Below, piece by piece: positions 3,943 through 16,768 of a stretch of 64,000 nt of DNA. The stretch is from Terriglobia bacterium (GTDB taxonomy: Bacteria > Acidobacteriota > Terriglobia > Terriglobales > Acidobacteriaceae). Below the pieces are notes generated by a model. The model did not search any database. It was not told where the DNA came from and worked only from the letters and a program-made list of their open reading frames with translations. A program made the translations under genes and the position numbers. Numbering within the stretch: the stretch's first letter is position 1; each line of letters opens with the position of its first letter. The stretch is taken from the NCBI GenBank assembly GCA_020072585.1, contig JAIQGL010000025.1, forward strand, positions 1 to 64,000, read 5' to 3'.

Positions 3943-5007
3943 GTGAGACACACGCGAATCATCGTCACCCACTACGGCGGGCCCGATGCACTGCAGGTGG
4001 TTGAAGAGGAGTGCCCCGAGCCGAAGCGCGGTGAAGTGCGGGTGAGAGTGCTGGCCGCAGGTGTCGCCATGCCCGACATCATGGCGCGCGAGGGCGTTCA
4101 TCCCGAAACGCCCGCGGTGCCCTTCACGCCGGGCTGGGATCTAGTTGGCGTGGTGGACCGGCTCGGCGCCGGCGTCGTTGAACGCAAACCAGGAATCGAA
4201 CCCGGCCAGATCGTTGCCGCGATGCCGATCCACGGCGCGTACGCGGAGTTCGTCTGCCTGCCGCAACGTGAGCTGGTTCCGGTGCCATCCGGGTTGGATG
4301 CCGCCGAGTCTGTCAGCCTCGTGCTGAACTACATCACGGCGTACCAGATGCTGCATCGCTCCGCCAAGGTCAAACCGGGCCAGCGTGTGCTGATTCACGG
4401 CGCGTCGGGTGGGGTCGGCACGGCACTCTTGCAGCTTGGGCGCCTCGCCGAGCTGGAGATGTACGGTACCTGTTCATCGCGAGGGGCGCCGGCCGTTTCC
4501 GAGCTGGGCGGTGTCCCAATCGATTACCGGAATCAGGACTACGTAAAGGAAATTCACCGCCTCGCGAGCGAAGGCGTGGATGCCGTCTTCGACCCAATCG
4601 GTGGTGCCCACCTCTGGCATTCGCGCGAGGCCCTCCGTCCGGGCGGGAGGGTGGTGGGTTATGGCAATACAACCTCGCTACGTGGGGAGGGATTAGGTTC
4701 GGACCGTACAGGCCGCCGTAATCGCCTTCATGGAATCCCCATCTACGCGTTGTACATCGCCGGCGGCTGGCTTCTCCCTGGCCGGAAACGGATCGTCCCC
4801 TACAGCATCCAGACGCTCAAACGGCTGAAACCGGCCTTATTTCGACAGGATCTGATCGCCCTGTTTGACCTCCTTCAGCAGCAAAAGATCAAGCCGCTCA
4901 TCGCGCAGCGATTTCCGCTTGCCGAGGCAAGACACGCGCAGGAGTTGCTCGGAAAGGGCGGCGTGATAGGCAAGATCGTACTCGTGTGCGACGGGTCACA
5001 AGCTTGA
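3943..5007 (+). CDS. zinc-type alcohol dehydrogenase-like (MDR/quinone oxidoreductase family) protein
   Basis: An NAD(P)H-dependent medium-chain dehydrogenase/reductase of about 354 aa. The N-terminal GroES-like domain contains 'HYGGPDALQVVE' and 'VRVLAAGVAMPDIMAREG'; the cofactor site is 'HGASGGVGTALLQLG' near residues 151-165, the Rossmann glycine motif of the quinone-oxidoreductase branch. Catalytic zinc cysteines are absent, so it more likely reduces quinones or enones than oxidises alcohols. I prefer the GTG at 3943 ('VRHTRIIVTHYGG'), which has GGGAG upstream; ATG 3919 and the frame start at 3877 are alternatives. It stands alone between unrelated genes. The substrate cannot be inferred. 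Confidence 0.8.
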   Translation: MRHTRIIVTHYGGPDALQVVEEECPEPKRGEVRVRVLAAGVAMPDIMAREGVHPETPAVPFTPGWDLVGVVDRLGAGVVERKPGIEPGQIVAAMPIHGAYAEFVCLPQRELVPVPSGLDAAESVSLVLNYITAYQMLHRSAKVKPGQRVLIHGASGGVGTALLQLGRLAELEMYGTCSSRGAPAVSELGGVPIDYRNQDYVKEIHRLASEGVDAVFDPIGGAHLWHSREALRPGGRVVGYGNTTSLRGEGLGSDRTGRRNRLHGIPIYALYIAGGWLLPGRKRIVPYSIQTLKRLKPALFRQDLIALFDLLQQQKIKPLIAQRFPLAEARHAQELLGKGGVIGKIVLVCDGSQA

Positions 5008-5080
5008 GTCAGGGGCGGCGTAAGAAGGGCAGCGCAGCGGACGGTGCTTCGCGCAGCCGCTAATGGGCCGATTTGAGAAT

Positions 5081-5305
5081 TGCTCGGGACGGGCAGATTT
5101 GAGGCTCTAGCAATCGGGAGCCTGCTGCCGAAACCCTGAGCGAAGCGCCTCAGGCGCGGAGTCGAAGGATCTCGCGCCCGCCCCTCGCACGTCTTCTTTT
5201 TGTGCGCATCCGCTCGCGCTTCTGCGCATCATGCCTTGGGATGCTTCGTGGGTCGGCAGCGAAAGAGCATTGCCAATCCAGCATTTTTTTTTAAGGAAAA
5301 AAAAT
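5081..5305. repeat. degenerate copy of the tRNA-Pro-associated repeat
   Basis: It begins with CTCGGGACGGGCAGATTTGA (a decayed tRNA 3' end) and ends with the same block as the intact units (GTGGGTCGGCAGCGAAAGAG to the T-tract). The middle is different, and the unit is about 225 bp instead of 178 bp. It also carries a CGAAGGATCTCGC element of the kind dispersed through the window. Confidence 0.7.
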
Positions 5306-5661
5306 TGGTCGGGACGGGCAGATTTGAACTGCCGAACAACTCGTGCCTCGCACGAGCCCCCTCGCAAGGCTTTTATTTGTGCGCATCCGCTCCGCTTCTG
5401 CGCATCGGGTCCTTTGGGGGTGCTTCGTGGGTCGGCAGCGAAAGAGCATTGCCAATCCAGCATTTTTTTTAAGGAAAAAGAATTGGTCGGGACGGGCAGA
5501 TTTGAACTGCCGAACAACTCGTGCCTCGCACGAGCCCCCTCGCAAGGCTTTTATTTGTGCGCATCCGCTCCGCTTCTGCGCATCGGGTCCTTTGGGGTGC
5601 TTCGTGGGTCGGCAGCGAAAGAGCATTGCCAATCCAGCATTTTTTTTTAAGGAAAAAGAAT
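5306..5661. repeat. two tandem 178-bp repeats beginning with the 3' end of tRNA-Pro
   Basis: Units 5306-5483 and 5484-5661 are nearly identical and differ only by one base in a G-run and one in a T-run. Each begins with the 30-nt 3' end of the adjacent tRNA-Pro gene (T arm, 3' acceptor strand and CCA, read on the minus strand), then a hairpin CTCGTGC-CTC-GCACGAG, then a block shared by all units and a T8-9 tract. They lie directly downstream of the tRNA in its transcription direction. Open frames seen here encode the known artefact type 'GRFELP', derived from tRNA sequence, and are not genes. Confidence 0.9.
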
Positions 5662-5738
5662 TGGTCGGGACGGGCAGATTTGAACTGCCGACCCCTCGCA
5701 CCCCAAGCGAGTGCTCTACCAGGCTGAGCCACGTCCCG
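5662..5738 (-). tRNA. tRNA-Pro (anticodon GGG)
   Basis: A 77-nt cloverleaf including encoded CCA. The acceptor stem is CGGGACG with CGTCCCG, the D stem GCTC/GAGC, the anticodon stem CTCGC/GCGAG around the loop TTGGGGT (anticodon GGG, with the G37 expected in tRNA-Pro), and the T stem GGCAG/CTGCC with loop TTCAAAT. The discriminator base is A. All stems are perfectly paired, so the gene appears functional. Its 3' end is repeated downstream. Confidence 0.95.
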
Positions 5739-6170
5739 ACGAACCGCAGATTCCGCTACTGAAACGATGGGGTCATTGCAGCGGAAGTTCGCCTTGATTA
5801 TAGCATTTGAAATTTGTTCGGTAAAAAACGCTACGCGTGAGCGATAGTCGTTCAGTTTGAAATGACCTGGGGAAACATGCTGCCTATGTGTCAAAGTTTC
5901 GTCACCTCGAGGGTCCGTAAAGCGAGCCCGAGTTTTCGCTGGGGCCTCCAGCTCGCGCGGTTTTTTCGCGTGATGGGGTGGTCGTCATCGGGCGAGTAGG
6001 ACCGAGGGACCTTGTGCTGTGGACAGACAATGTGGGAAGAAAAAATGGCCACAGAAAAAAACGCCAGGATTGTTTTCGGTCATGATCACAATCCCGGCGA
6101 GTGCAGCTTCTCCTTATCGAGTCAATTCAGAATGAGGAAATATGGGCCTATGCGCATACCTGGGCACTGC
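5739..6170. other. intergenic region with a dispersed repeat
   Basis: This contains the presumed promoter of tRNA-Pro on the minus strand and, at 5992-6018, a 27-bp element (GCGAGTAGGACCGAGGGACC and following bases) that recurs with one mismatch at 21068-21094. No gene is supported here. Confidence 0.5.
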
Positions 6171-6992
6171 TCATGCGCGGACCGCTATCACCTCCAGGTA
6201 CTCTGATGAAACCACGGTGAGCTCATCGCCGCCCCGGTTATGCGATGACCACAACGCTTCCAGCTCCGCGCGCAGCGTCCGCGCGGCCTCTGCATTCAGT
6301 GACGCGAAGGCCCGGTTGGTGGGGCCGTAATATTGGCGGTAGAACTCAACCACGTCAGCCGGCGGAAAAGGATAAGTAAAGCTGTAATGGCAGCGTCTCA
6401 TCTTCAACTCCGCGGCCCCGTGGCCCAGTCTCTCGCGCACCACAGTCTCATTGCCCCACAACACCGGCGCCGGCATCCCAGAGGGAGCAATGAACCGGGC
6501 GAAGGTCTTGAACATCTGTCCCACAAAACCTTCCGCCGTCCAGTTGCCCATGGCGATGGTGCCGCCAGGGCTGCACACGCGCAGCAGCTCGCGCGCCACC
6601 AGCTCCGGACGCGGGGCAAACATCGCTCCCACCAGGCTGGTCACCACGTCAAAGCTCGCGTCCTCAAAAGGCAGCGCCTCGGCGTCACCTTCAAGAAATC
6701 GGGCTTTGAGACCTTCCGCGTCGGCCCGAGCCTGCGCGCGTTGCACCAGGTTCGGCGCAATGTCCACGCCGGTAACGTTGACTCCGTCACGCGCCGCCAG
6801 CAGCGCGATCTGGCCTGAGCCGCAAGCCACATCCAGCAACTGGCATCCGGCGGGAACATCAAGGCGTTCATAGAAAACGCGCGCGTCATGCTCCATGTAG
6901 CGTGAGAAGCGGTCATAATCTCCGGCCATCCACGTCTCCTTGAGCCGCGTTTTCAGGCCGTCGAATTCCGATGTGATTGCGATGGCGTTCAT
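6171..6992 (-). CDS. class I SAM-dependent methyltransferase
   Basis: A 273-aa soluble methyltransferase of the UbiE/Methyltransf_11 type. Motif I is 'LLDVACGSGQIAL' at about 52-64, with the acidic residue of motif II in 'VTGVDIAP', then 'LEGDAEALPFEDASFDVV' (motif III/post-III) and the 'LLRVCSPGGTIAMGNW' strand-helix. The C-terminal part includes 'YYGPTNRAFASL', found in related uncharacterised enzymes. GGAGGG precedes the start. The tautomerase gene lies 22 bp upstream on the same strand, so they may be co-transcribed. The substrate is unknown. Confidence 0.85.
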   Translation of the reverse strand: MNAIAITSEFDGLKTRLKETWMAGDYDRFSRYMEHDARVFYERLDVPAGCQLLDVACGSGQIALLAARDGVNVTGVDIAPNLVQRAQARADAEGLKARFLEGDAEALPFEDASFDVVTSLVGAMFAPRPELVARELLRVCSPGGTIAMGNWTAEGFVGQMFKTFARFIAPSGMPAPVLWGNETVVRERLGHGAAELKMRRCHYSFTYPFPPADVVEFYRQYYGPTNRAFASLNAEAARTLRAELEALWSSHNRGGDELTVVSSEYLEVIAVRA

Positions 6993-8507: not shown

Positions 8508-8650
8508 TGTTTGCAACAAAAAGCAACATACCGATTGAGCGAAGGGATCAGGCGATGGGTAAAAATGAAGCCGGGTTCGGCACGAGTCAGCCCCTGCCAC
8601 GTCTAATTTAAGATCGCGCGCCCCGCCAGGTGAATCGAAATTTAGTTAAC

Positions 8651-8710
8651 ATGGTTTTAGTGAACATGTTTTCAGTGAACATGTTTTTAGTGAACATGTT
8701 TTTAGTGCCT
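8651..8710 (+). repeat. four 15-bp tandem repeats before the RND adaptor
   Basis: Units start at 8651, 8666, 8681 and 8696 with consensus ATGTTTTTAGTGAAC. They are in frame with the adaptor and each begins with an ATG. Related 15-bp periodic repeats occur at 27913-27957 and 30014-30088. Confidence 0.85.
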
Positions 8711-8722
8711 ATGGATACATAC

Positions 8723-9814
8723 ATGAGTCTTAAGAAGATAACTTCGTTGATCGTGCTTATGGCAGGTCTCACATTCCTGGCTTCAGGGTGCGCGGATGGC
8801 GCCAAAGCGGGGCCGCCCAGCGGGCCGCAAGCCTTTCCCGTGCAGGTGATTACCGCGAAATCGCAGGTGGTTCCGTTTTCCACAGACTATCTGGCTACGT
8901 TGAAGTCGCGCAATGCCGCCACACTCCAGCCGCTGGTGGAAGGCGACATTACCAGAATCTTTGTCACTTCCGGCCAGCGCGTTGAGACGGGGAAACCGCT
9001 GCTGGAGATTGACCCGCGCAAACAAGAGGCTACGGTCAATAATCAGGAGGCTGGACTCAAGTCAAAGCAGGCGGTGATGCAGCAGGCGGCAATTGATCTG
9101 GACCGCAAAAAGCAGCTTTTTGCCGCCGGCGTGGTGGCCAAAGCTGACCTTGATCAGGCGCAAAATACATACAACGCCGCCAAAGCCGACGCGGAAGCCT
9201 TGCAGGCCGGAATCCGCGAACAGCAGGTGCAGTTGCACTATTACACGGTGCGCGCGCCGGCAGACGGCATCATCGGCGATATTCCCGTACATGTGGGTGA
9301 CCACGTAAACACTCAAACCATGCTTACAACGGTCGACCCTGGCGGAGCGCTGGAAGCCTACATGAACGTTCCAGCGGAGAAATCCGCGGCCCTGCGCATG
9401 GGCATGCCGGTGGACATTGTGGACGACGAAACCAAGCCTCCGGTGCGCACCCGCATCTCATTTATCTCGCCGCACGTGGATACGGATTCACAGACGCTGC
9501 TGGTAAAAACGCAGGTGTCCAATCCGGCGCGGAAGTTCCGCAACGCCCAGCAGGTCCACGCCCGCGTGGTGTGGTCAGAGCGGAGTGCTCCGGTCATTCC
9601 GGTGACAGCGGTCTCTCGGCTGAGCGGAAAGATCTTTGCTTTTGTGGCGGAAGGCCAGGGCCAGCAAGCCGTGGCGCGGCAGCGGGTGATCCAGGTGGGC
9701 GACTTGATTGGCAATGATTACGTGGTGCTGGATGGCATCAAGCCCGGCGACAAGATCATTGTGACCAGCGTGCAGATGCTGGCTGATGGCATGCCCGTGG
9801 TGCCTCAGTCATAA
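8723..9814 (+). CDS. RND efflux periplasmic adaptor (membrane fusion protein)
   Basis: The membrane-fusion subunit of a tripartite RND pump, about 363 aa. The N-terminal 'LTFLASGC' suggests a lipid-anchored cysteine. Then come a lipoyl half-motif ('ATLQPLVEGDITRIFVTSGQ'), a coiled-coil hairpin ('AVMQQAAIDLDRKKQLF'), the second lipoyl half ('YTVRAPADGIIGDIPVHVGD') and beta-barrel and membrane-proximal domains ending 'DGIKPGDKIIVTSVQMLADG'. I place the start at the ATG at 8723. Five further in-frame ATGs between 8651 and 8711 lie in a 15-bp repeat, so the true start is uncertain. The permease follows after 118 bp. No outer-membrane channel gene is nearby. Confidence 0.85.
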   Translation: MSLKKITSLIVLMAGLTFLASGCADGAKAGPPSGPQAFPVQVITAKSQVVPFSTDYLATLKSRNAATLQPLVEGDITRIFVTSGQRVETGKPLLEIDPRKQEATVNNQEAGLKSKQAVMQQAAIDLDRKKQLFAAGVVAKADLDQAQNTYNAAKADAEALQAGIREQQVQLHYYTVRAPADGIIGDIPVHVGDHVNTQTMLTTVDPGGALEAYMNVPAEKSAALRMGMPVDIVDDETKPPVRTRISFISPHVDTDSQTLLVKTQVSNPARKFRNAQQVHARVVWSERSAPVIPVTAVSRLSGKIFAFVAEGQGQQAVARQRVIQVGDLIGNDYVVLDGIKPGDKIIVTSVQMLADGMPVVPQS

Positions 9815-14128: not shown

Positions 14129-16768
14129 TCAGGTGCGCATGGGGTTGGAAAGCAGCGTTTGCACTTTGCCGGCAAGCTGTTTTAAGGAATACGGCTTTTG
14201 CAGGTAGAGCATGCCCTGCATGGAGATGCCGTTTTGCAGGACTACGTCATCCGCATAACCGGAGATATAGAGCAGTTTGGTATTGGGCCGCAGTTGCAAT
14301 AGCTGGTCGGCAAATTCCCGGCCGCTCATCTTGGGCATGACCACGTCACTGATCACCAGATCAAACTGGCTGGAAACCGCCACCAACTGCAGCGCTTCAG
14401 GACCGCTGCCCGCACAGGTAACGGTATATCCCAGGGAGCCCAGGAACTCAGCGCTCACGTTGCGCAGGTCCACTTCGTCTTCCACCAGCAAAATATTTCC
14501 CTGCCCTCTTTGCAAAGCATGTTGCATGGCTTCATCAGTTCCAGTTGCGCCGGAAAGAGTGACAGGCAGCAGAATGCTGATCTGCGTGCCTTTTCGCGGG
14601 CTTGATTCAATGGAAATCTCTCCCTGCGATTGCTGGACGATTCCATACACAGTGGCCAGACCAAGGCCTGTACCGCGCCCTACTTCCTTGGTGGTATAGA
14701 AAGGTTCAAAAGCATGCAGCCGGGTTTCCTCGTCCATGCCCATTCCTGTATCGCGTATGCGGATGGCGACATATTGGCCAATCATGACGCTTCCTGAAGC
14801 AGTGAGCACGGGCCGCAGTACGTCCTCAGTCTCAATGAAAATCTGCCCTCCGCCTGGCATCGCGTCACGGGAGTTGATCACGATATTGAAGATGATCTGC
14901 TCAAAGTGCGTCTTGTCAATAACCACGGTCCCGGTGGCGCGAAGGTTGACGATGAGTTCGATGTCCTCGCCAATCAGGCGCGGCAGAATGGCGGTAAGTT
15001 CCTGCAATGTCTGGCCGGTCTGGAGCGGCGTAGGCCGGACGATTTCCTTGCGGCTGAAAGTAAGTAACTGGCGGGTAAGTCCGCTGGCGCGCTGCGTGGT
15101 GTCCATGATCTTGCCGCAGTAGCGGCGAAGGCTTTCATTCGAGTCCAGCTTGGTTTCCAGAAGTTCAGCATATCCCCCGATGACGCCCAGAAGATTGTTG
15201 AAGTCATGCGCCACGCCGCCTGCCAGCCTGCCCAGCGCTTCCATTTTCTGCGCCTGGAGAAACTTTGCCTCCATTTCGTATTCTTCTGTCCGGTCAAGTT
15301 GCATGCCAAAGATACATTCCTTATCACCGATGCGGACCAGCGTCGCAAAATACAGGCCAACGCGCTCGGCGCCCGTGGCGTCCTTGAATCTCACTTCAAG
15401 GTTCTGCACTGAGCCATCGACACAAAGCTTGTTGTAGAACTCGGCGCGTTCCGCCGCCGATTTCCAGAGTCCCAGTTCAACGGCTGTTCTGCCAATGACT
15501 TTTTCCGCCGGCAGCGCAAGCATGCGCAGCAGATTGTCATTCACATTAAGGAAGACGCCTTCCATGGAGCAAATGGCGCACCCAACCGGACTCTGGCGGA
15601 AGATCGTGGCAAACCTTTCTTCGGATTGCTTGAGCGCGATCTCGTTCTGCTTTCGTTCTGTAATATCAATCGACGTGCCTTCAATGAAGCTGTTGCCGGC
15701 GCCGTCCGTGATGATGGTGGCGCGCTCCAGTATCCAGAACAAGGTGCCATCCTGGCGGCGCTGTGTGCATTCATAGTTCAGCACCTGGCCTTGCCGCCCC
15801 AGGTCAATCAGAAATTGCTCGCGCTCCTCGGGTTGGGCATAAAGGAATATGGTGGAGAGGGAGAGCGCCTCCTCTTTGGACTGAAATCCGTACATTCTGA
15901 CAAAAGCGCTGTTGCAATTTAATAGCTTGCCTTCCGGAGTAGACATATAAACCGAGGCAAGATTGTTTTCGAAGAGTACCTGGTACTGGCGCGCAACGGT
16001 AGAGGCCATTTCAGCCTGGTTCTCAAACAGCGTCAGGATCATTCCAAAAGCCACAAAGAACTTGGGCAGGTTCCATACGAAGCTCCCTGGACCAAGTTCC
16101 GAGCCCTGGGCCGCGACGATTGCTGACAGCGGAAAAACCGCTCCCCACAGGATGAACGAAGCGGAGGTAAGAAGTACTCCCGGCGTGAGCCGGCGGAAAC
16201 GGCGGAAGTAAACCAGGCCCGTTACATAAAAGAAACCCAACAGGTAGAAATTAAGCCCGTGATCCGGATTGCCATGCAGCACCTGGAGGATGGCCCATAT
16301 TCCATAGGGGAGCATACACAACAAGCAATAGAGATGCAGGCTCTTCCAGTTATAGAAACGGATTGCCTGCACCGTGCCGTAAACATTGCTCACAAGCAAC
16401 AGTGAGATATAAAACCAATGGGCCTCAACACCGAACTCCAGCCCAGTAACATAGAACAAGGCCCCTGCGCTGATGAAAGCGGCAAAAGCAATGCGCCTTT
16501 CCTGCCGCATGAAGACCTCAGAAACAGAAAGCAGAAAACAGGTCCCGGCAAGGATCAGTGTGGACGTCATGATCCACGGAGTGAAGAGCATGAGCGGGGG
16601 GAAAAAGTCGTCAAACGTGGGAGCGGCAAAATGAACAAAAATGGCAATCCAGCCCATCATCCACAAGCCAGTACTTTTCTGGCGGTCACGCAGGTAGATC
16701 CAGGCAAAGAGGGCTACCAGAACAGTGGTGACGGCAAAGACAACAAATTCTTCAAACCGGGGAGACAT
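14129..16768 (-). CDS. membrane-bound hybrid sensor histidine kinase with two PAS domains and receiver
   Basis: About 879 aa from the ATG at 16768 (the frame opens at a TTG at 16846). Order: a 7-8 span membrane region to about residue 270; PAS 1 ('NLASVYMSTPEGKLLNCNSA'); PAS 2 ('IFRQSPVGCAICSMEGVF'); HisKA with 'LAGGVAHDFNNLLG', phospho-accepting His at about 521; HATPase_c ('NIVINSRDAMPGGG', 'IRDTGMGMDEE', 'GTGLGLATVYGIV'); and a C-terminal receiver with 'LLVEDEVDLR', phospho-acceptor Asp at about 808 ('VISDVVMPKMSG') and Lys in 'LQKPYSLKQL'. All catalytic motifs are intact. The HDFNNLL box is typical of hybrid kinases of this class. There is no partner regulator next to it. The signal is unknown. 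Confidence 0.93.
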   Translation of the reverse strand: MSPRFEEFVVFAVTTVLVALFAWIYLRDRQKSTGLWMMGWIAIFVHFAAPTFDDFFPPLMLFTPWIMTSTLILAGTCFLLSVSEVFMRQERRIAFAAFISAGALFYVTGLEFGVEAHWFYISLLLVSNVYGTVQAIRFYNWKSLHLYCLLCMLPYGIWAILQVLHGNPDHGLNFYLLGFFYVTGLVYFRRFRRLTPGVLLTSASFILWGAVFPLSAIVAAQGSELGPGSFVWNLPKFFVAFGMILTLFENQAEMASTVARQYQVLFENNLASVYMSTPEGKLLNCNSAFVRMYGFQSKEEALSLSTIFLYAQPEEREQFLIDLGRQGQVLNYECTQRRQDGTLFWILERATIITDGAGNSFIEGTSIDITERKQNEIALKQSEERFATIFRQSPVGCAICSMEGVFLNVNDNLLRMLALPAEKVIGRTAVELGLWKSAAERAEFYNKLCVDGSVQNLEVRFKDATGAERVGLYFATLVRIGDKECIFGMQLDRTEEYEMEAKFLQAQKMEALGRLAGGVAHDFNNLLGVIGGYAELLETKLDSNESLRRYCGKIMDTTQRASGLTRQLLTFSRKEIVRPTPLQTGQTLQELTAILPRLIGEDIELIVNLRATGTVVIDKTHFEQIIFNIVINSRDAMPGGGQIFIETEDVLRPVLTASGSVMIGQYVAIRIRDTGMGMDEETRLHAFEPFYTTKEVGRGTGLGLATVYGIVQQSQGEISIESSPRKGTQISILLPVTLSGATGTDEAMQHALQRGQGNILLVEDEVDLRNVSAEFLGSLGYTVTCAGSGPEALQLVAVSSQFDLVISDVVMPKMSGREFADQLLQLRPNTKLLYISGYADDVVLQNGISMQGMLYLQKPYSLKQLAGKVQTLLSNPMRT

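Follow-up and report, generated by a model that had tools for sequence, protein, structure and literature searches.

The window, by which we mean the whole 64,000-nt stretch analysed, comes from a 6.9-Mb draft genome of 74 contigs. It carries on its minus strand a tRNA-Pro(GGG) gene with an encoded CCA (5662..5738), called by ARAGORN and matching Rfam RF00005 at 62.9 bits. A promoter-like site lies 5' of the gene on the same strand (5797..5825; TTTACC, 17 nt, then TATAAT with TG); it is a consensus match only, with one such site found where 0.4 were expected. Directly 3' of the tRNA, again on the minus strand, units follow head to tail, each ending in that tRNA's 3' end. Unit 1 (5484..5661, 178 bp) consists of a spacer, a hairpin block and a CCA-ended tail, and scores 131.1 bits with the covariance model described below, of which it is itself a training member. 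Unit 2 (5306..5483) is likewise 178 bp long. The tails of unit 1 (5484..5513; T arm, 3' strand of the acceptor, CCA) and unit 2 (5306..5335) are both identical to the tRNA over 30 of 30 nt and are spaced 178 nt apart. Unit 3 (5081..5305, 225 bp) has decayed: its tail (5081..5102) matches at 21 of 22 nt, and a REP-like palindrome (5119..5169) replaces the last hairpin. This palindrome belongs to a dispersed family with 22 genome-wide matches, the copy at 5119..5169 being found at E 1.9e-5. Counted from the CCA of tRNA-Pro, the 22-nt tails start 156, 334 and 559 nt downstream. These results confirm the original prediction of tandem tRNA-Pro 3'-end copies, one of them decayed, and its claim that the two intact units differ in homopolymer lengths alone: the entire difference is one A and one C, two single-base indels in homopolymer runs.

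A search of 4900-6150 for terminator-like sites came back empty, against 2.2 in shuffled sequences. Several reading frames of 136–141 aa cross the array on both strands (5107-5762) and are likely spurious if annotated as proteins. The four array frames that were scanned had no Pfam match above the cut-off, the best reaching E 0.0099 and 16.3 bits against a cut-off of 27. Elsewhere in the window, a 394-aa reading frame (8630-9814) begins with a 15-bp tandem repeat of 4.5 copies (8641-8707), and ARAGORN calls a tRNA-Arg(CCG) inside it (9559-9651, plus strand); the call is probably false.

Other tRNA genes of the host genome were surveyed for the same arrangement. The set comprised 70 RF00005 matches plus tRNA-SeC, with flanks, in which ARAGORN identified 73 distinct tRNA genes. 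A tail copy was scored where the last 22 nt of a tRNA recurred with at least 18/22 identities on the same strand, no more than 1250 nt downstream. Seven of the 73 genes had such copies, five with 21 or 22 identities (Pro GGG, Gln TTG, Leu CAA, SeC and Met) and two decayed to 18 (Thr GGT and another Met). Three controls over the same 73 genes (upstream on the same strand, and both regions antisense) gave none at 18 or more, the best being 17, so the host tail copies are not due to chance. The Gln, Leu and SeC arrays are built on a different block, the REP-like palindrome, most of whose 22 genome matches lie away from predicted tRNAs. The Met and Thr tail copies resemble longer tRNA copies with inserts in their loops. 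Units 1 and 2 of the Pro array do not match the palindrome block; unit 3 does. The genome-wide block search that had been proposed as a check placed the Pro block at the window locus and nowhere else in the host. The hairpin blocks of the Gln, Leu and SeC arrays and of window unit 3 come from a dispersed palindromic family and in this resemble REP/BIME palindromes; the intact Pro units have a block of their own at a single site.

Two further tRNA loci drew attention. In L086 (721-2030), tRNA-Leu(CAA) is followed by an insert of ~1 kb, closed by a more extensive tRNA copy that begins at the anticodon arm, and then by a palindrome-type unit; the insert looks like a small island. In the host at G000:C43:147652-151661 (L074), 24 RF00005 matches, several of them low-scoring, fall within ~4 kb, a density reminiscent of the tRNA arrays of phages or plasmids.

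A similar design exists in the E. coli tyrT/tyrV array (rtT, rttR, RF00391), where 178-bp tandem units also lie directly 3' of a tRNA and the tRNA 3' end closes each unit. In E. coli these tyrT repeats have so far been regarded as a curiosity, and effects on the stringent response are known in the rtT context. The tails of the K-12 tyrV array stand at 159, 337 and 515 nt with a 178-bp period, and the K-12 annotation has rttR ending at the CCA of a repeat unit. Both arrays have a hairpin-rich block that includes an inverted tRNA segment. The tail is 19 nt long in E. coli and 23–30 nt in the acidobacterial arrays, which occur at several tRNAs per genome. The shared period is likely a coincidence, since array periods in relatives of the host span about 105 to 178. 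Copy number varies in the enterobacterial repeats as well; rtT RNA is recorded as a 175-bp VNTR of Salmonella Paratyphi A in PMC2658671. Two further papers tie rtT to BIME elements (PMC2965389) and place rttR among small RNAs with REP (PMC12306157), a likeness that window unit 3 shares.

The two arrays differ in phylum and in the tRNA concerned, and their block sequences are unrelated. The Rfam RtT model (RF00391), run over window 4500-6600 with E values up to 5 allowed, gave no match there, nor did it give any at the gathering threshold in five further stretches (L075, L133, L038, L254 and L257). As a positive control it gave four matches in E. coli K-12 (L131), three of them within the array. 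We therefore regard the window array as an analogue of the rtT array and not as a member of its family. A looser comparison is with the Bacillus cereus pseudo-tRNA tRNA-Other, a tRNA-like remnant for which a place within a larger regulatory RNA has been suggested; as described in PMC3399842, it is a single pseudo-tRNA next to an island, with no tandem tail array. We found no report of tRNA-tail arrays in Acidobacteria in the literature searched, which comprised openly licensed papers.

We searched for the Pro unit in related genomes with a covariance model built from 11 units of 6 genomes. Units scoring at least 48 bits, where the tRNA alone scores about 25–39, were present in 13 of 150 genomes of the family. 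Across the order, a match at E 1e-8 was obtained for 23 of 298 genomes, which represent 11 of 70 genera. Each of these 23 falls in the family of the host, probably Acidobacteriaceae, a figure set against the order total, undivided by family. Eighteen of them carry the unit immediately 3' of tRNA-Pro(GGG); in two it is displaced, by 12.5 kb (G030) and 66 kb (G048), and in three (G133, G344 and G360) the stretch covered is indecisive. When the named-genome collection was scanned separately for pairs of exact tails 126–156 nt apart, 10 contigs from nine genomes matched, all with titles naming Acidobacteria, Acidobacteriaceae, Terriglobia or Terracidiphilus. The last 22 nt of the own tRNA were matched exactly by 34 of 51 listed tail copies, a list in which one array is entered twice (L257, L280) and at least one entry is probably a non-array match (L037, at 1987 nt). 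Searches of plasmid and phage records with the array gave matches to the tRNA part only among the best 20 in each case (with 75 further plasmid and 44 further phage records).

The arrays are far from universal at this tRNA. We collected 63 tRNA-Pro(GGG) loci in the family, of which a contig end cuts six downstream and three upstream, leaving 57 with at least 250 nt downstream; only 7 of these 57 had tail copies within 700 nt, and a congener of the host (G001) retains just a relic; both observations count against the explanation we favour below. Comparison across relatives, another of the proposed checks, showed that copy number varies. Truncated copies follow the last tail in six of eight arrays examined, the exceptions being the G163 Pro and G007 SeC arrays. 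Together with the near-identical units, these observations support unequal recombination, which had been offered as an alternative source of the array, as the explanation of copy number.

Conservation was measured with one unit per genus, giving nine genera and 36 pairs. Block identity was 0.689 against 0.574 for shuffled sequence, above the shuffle in all 36 pairs; the 38-nt spacer reached 0.573 against 0.548 and exceeded the shuffle in 25 of 36. In a larger comparison of 72 pairs, the block was at 0.713 against 0.594, the spacer at 0.576 against 0.534, and the 50 nt 5' of tRNA-Pro at 0.597 against 0.568. That set includes three records whose genus is unknown and at least one same-genus pair (G197, G138), and it lacks G019, whose spacer measures 10 nt; we base the claim on the nine-genus set. 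The Pro block is more conserved between genera than the spacer, and its predicted fold is kept through paired changes.

The fold in question has a long-range helix, a C/G helix, a two-part central hairpin (5558..5582 in unit 1, from the fold analyses) and a hairpin at the variable-loop position (5517..5535 in unit 1, minus strand like all features of the array), making five helices as counted. Over 11 units, which represent six genomes and from which the structure was itself partly predicted, 87.4% of cells are paired against 76.6% in shuffled alignments, both-side changes occur in 27 cells against 10.4, and the covariation score is 0.274 against 0.119; none of 500 shuffles reached any of these values. 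Nine pairs are changed on both sides against 6.5 in shuffles (19/500 as high), and further pair types show no gain (275/500). Sliding the fold along the units left 31–45% of cells paired. All six pairs of the last hairpin, helix 5, are changed on both sides across the 11 units; the long-range helix has only 77.8% of its cells paired. The central hairpins of G121, G197 and Terracidiphilus form perfect inverted repeats; their sequence is unlike that of the window, and none of 300 shuffles equalled their stability. Folding of the whole unit was no better than shuffles (z 0.39; seven units, z –1.33 to 0.71). Single-helix scores were modest, with mean z of –1.2 to –1.6 over 22 non-independent units, these being 23 of 29 after near-identical units were dropped, less G136, where the anchors were missed.

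Within the block of unit 1, a segment (5592..5615) is complementary to the anticodon arm plus T stem of the tRNA, with a score of 24. None of 300 shuffles scored as high in the host (G000), G004 or G007; 1/300 did so for G019, 4/300 for G005, and 16/300 for G068, where the signal is weak. The same test found no inverted tRNA segment in the Gln, Met, Thr and G011 units. The unit of the E. coli tyrV array does have one (0/300 shuffles).

The explanation we favour, with a confidence that we would put at about even, is that the locus carries an rtT-like tRNA-tail array, multiplied by ordinary duplication and read as a CCA-ended small RNA. By analogy, it most likely works like the E. coli tyrT array, and it is probably transcribed as an RNA ending in CCA. 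The original prediction had listed an RNA-level function as an alternative; the conserved predicted fold and the parallel with E. coli tyrT/rtT lend it support.

The array might instead be a functionless by-product, in which a REP-like palindrome was rejoined to the tRNA T loop by short homology and the resulting tandem duplications expand, shrink and decay. We take this to be somewhat unlikely. The block of the Gln, Leu and SeC arrays and of the G011 Pro array is REP-like, with further copies scattered at sites away from tRNAs. Three dispersed palindromes (L135, L136 and L140) continue with TTCGACTC, a T-loop-like octamer, and a fourth (L139) continues with one change in it. In G011, one more block follows the last tail of the Pro array with another continuation, and in the G007 SeC array the junctions are of two kinds, one of them in the anticodon region. 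The truncated copies past the last tail also fit this account. PMC7661048 cites Shyamala et al. 1990 for REP sequences at the join points of duplications. Palindrome-type arrays may well have arisen in this way, by duplication via short homology. However, the other dispersed blocks do not have the octamer, two arrays have no terminal copy, and the flank past the last tail is unlike the spacer at the host Gln and SeC loci. Nor does the account explain the conservation of the Pro block between genera, which exceeds that of the spacer and comes with paired changes. Near one of the dispersed palindromes, at about 23.3 kb of the window, we also noted an Acido-Lenti-1 RNA match above the gathering score (L140:2086-2132, minus strand), with the palindrome copy ~0.5 kb away.

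Mobile elements offer a further account of the array, that its units are relics or miniatures of integrative elements stacked at a tRNA attachment site. The boundary of the tails at the T loop presumably fits such a site. Relatives do have islands here: a large serine recombinase gene is convergent to tRNA-Pro at 7 of the 63 family loci, abutting the tRNA itself in six (G030, G048, G038, G040, G022 and G066) and the tail of the second unit in G004. The recombinase was identified by its domains in G030 and G048, and by tblastn stretches of at least 132 residues in the other five. Its frame is open into the tRNA in five of the six tRNA-abutting loci and interrupted in G066; in G004 the tblastn match is split into two pieces that lie in different frames. 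Past the last tail of G004, the sequence aligns from its first base with the end of the gene found behind the CCA in L106, L033, L034, L093 and L108. An end motif closing in CCGACCA marks the far end of the island in three of the seven (G030, G048 and G004). Of the two others that were followed, G040 shows no such motif within 10 kb and the far copy in G038 is a different one. G163, G133 and G019 have the motif too, twice in succession in G133, with no recombinase gene in the stretches covered, and further copies lie in stretches of other Pro loci (L115/L236, L031 and L235).

In all six motif genomes the order is the same: the motif (or the last of them), then spacer, then a Pro unit, some of these units being decayed. 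The junction of motif and array spacer is exact in G133, where this spacer is the same as in the next unit. Because a separate end motif precedes the displaced units wherever far ends were seen, the units are not serine recombinase islands, and we dropped the idea that a Pro unit is the end of such an island. For the same reason we consider it unlikely that the units are integrative relics; the four array frames have no Pfam match above the cut-off, and no end motif was found in the whole window, where no recombinase gene was seen within 1700 nt downstream of the locus. The tails seem to serve as landing sites in relatives, with the Pro units in place before the islands arrived. The proposal of a tRNA-end attachment site thus stands in part, in that tails and tRNA ends act as landing sites, and its attribution to tyrosine integrase elements does not, the recombinase being of the serine type and the units having no recognised gene. 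Islands usually enter tRNA genes through tyrosine integrases (PMC4383910), and Islander-type islands likewise repeat a tRNA 3' fragment beyond an intact gene. The window units differ in having no recognised integrase or cargo, as do the relatives in having a large serine recombinase at tRNA-Pro.

Two candidates were rejected along the way: a tyrosine integrase between the tail copies was not found in the window array by the Pfam scan of four frames, and a likeness between the unit and the recombinase C terminus (tblastn, L257 and L282) proved to be tRNA antisense with weak padding. We also observed that the recombinase frame at L253:12836-14335 enters the antisense of the tRNA (14270-14346) by 66 bp, so that its last ~21 residues are tRNA-encoded, and that four other relatives (G022, G038, G040 and G048) have the same or nearly the same tRNA-encoded end. 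In G038 (C44:53737, L276), a tRNA-Pro copy of ~45 nt, from the anticodon loop on, lies 21 kb from the tRNA and hints that a further kind of island uses this gene.

The same island data bear on the notion that the array serves as a store of spare attachment sites, diverting islands from the tRNA itself. A recombinase gene (G004) or motif-marked relics (G163 and G019) at unit tails, and the exact joint of motif and spacer in G133, would suit it. We consider it very improbable, as the gene sits directly at the tRNA in the six other recombinase loci and there is no sign that arrays shift the balance of landing. That the array is an assembly artefact, conceivable for a draft in 74 contigs, is hardly credible given that separately assembled relatives have the same arrays and that units differ from one another.

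In the array as described above, each unit runs from a spacer through a hairpin block with its inverted tRNA piece to a copied tRNA segment that extends from the T loop as far as the CCA. For its proposed role as an rtT-like small RNA array, we envisage the following course of events. Identical units would recombine with each other, so that units multiply and shrink in number. Transcription would run on from the tRNA promoter into the array, as suggested by the fact that no terminator-like site was found. The tRNA-processing machinery would then release a structured, CCA-ended RNA of ~178 nt. This predicted RNA may act as a small RNA, perhaps pairing with or replacing tRNA-Pro(GGG). In relatives, the tails would double as landing sites for islands.

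A wider and more speculative proposal, which we rate as rather improbable, is that bacterial tRNA-tail arrays form a general and recurrent class of RNA genes. In unrelated phyla, a tRNA would acquire hairpin-bearing tandem echoes of its 3' half; released as CCA-ended RNAs, these would tune the tRNA from which they derive, which for tRNA-Pro(GGG) would mean pairing with its anticodon and T arms, and the tails would serve also as landing sites for serine-recombinase islands. The recurrence of one design with unrelated sequences at five or more tRNAs of a single acidobacterial genome, tRNA-SeC among them, suggests a recurrent process. Reading frames that cross tRNA-tail arrays are probably not genes. 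The existence of both carriers and array-free relatives permits comparative tests of whether RNA is made from the units, how T-loop homology and REP-like palindromes give rise to the arrays, and what use islands make of them.
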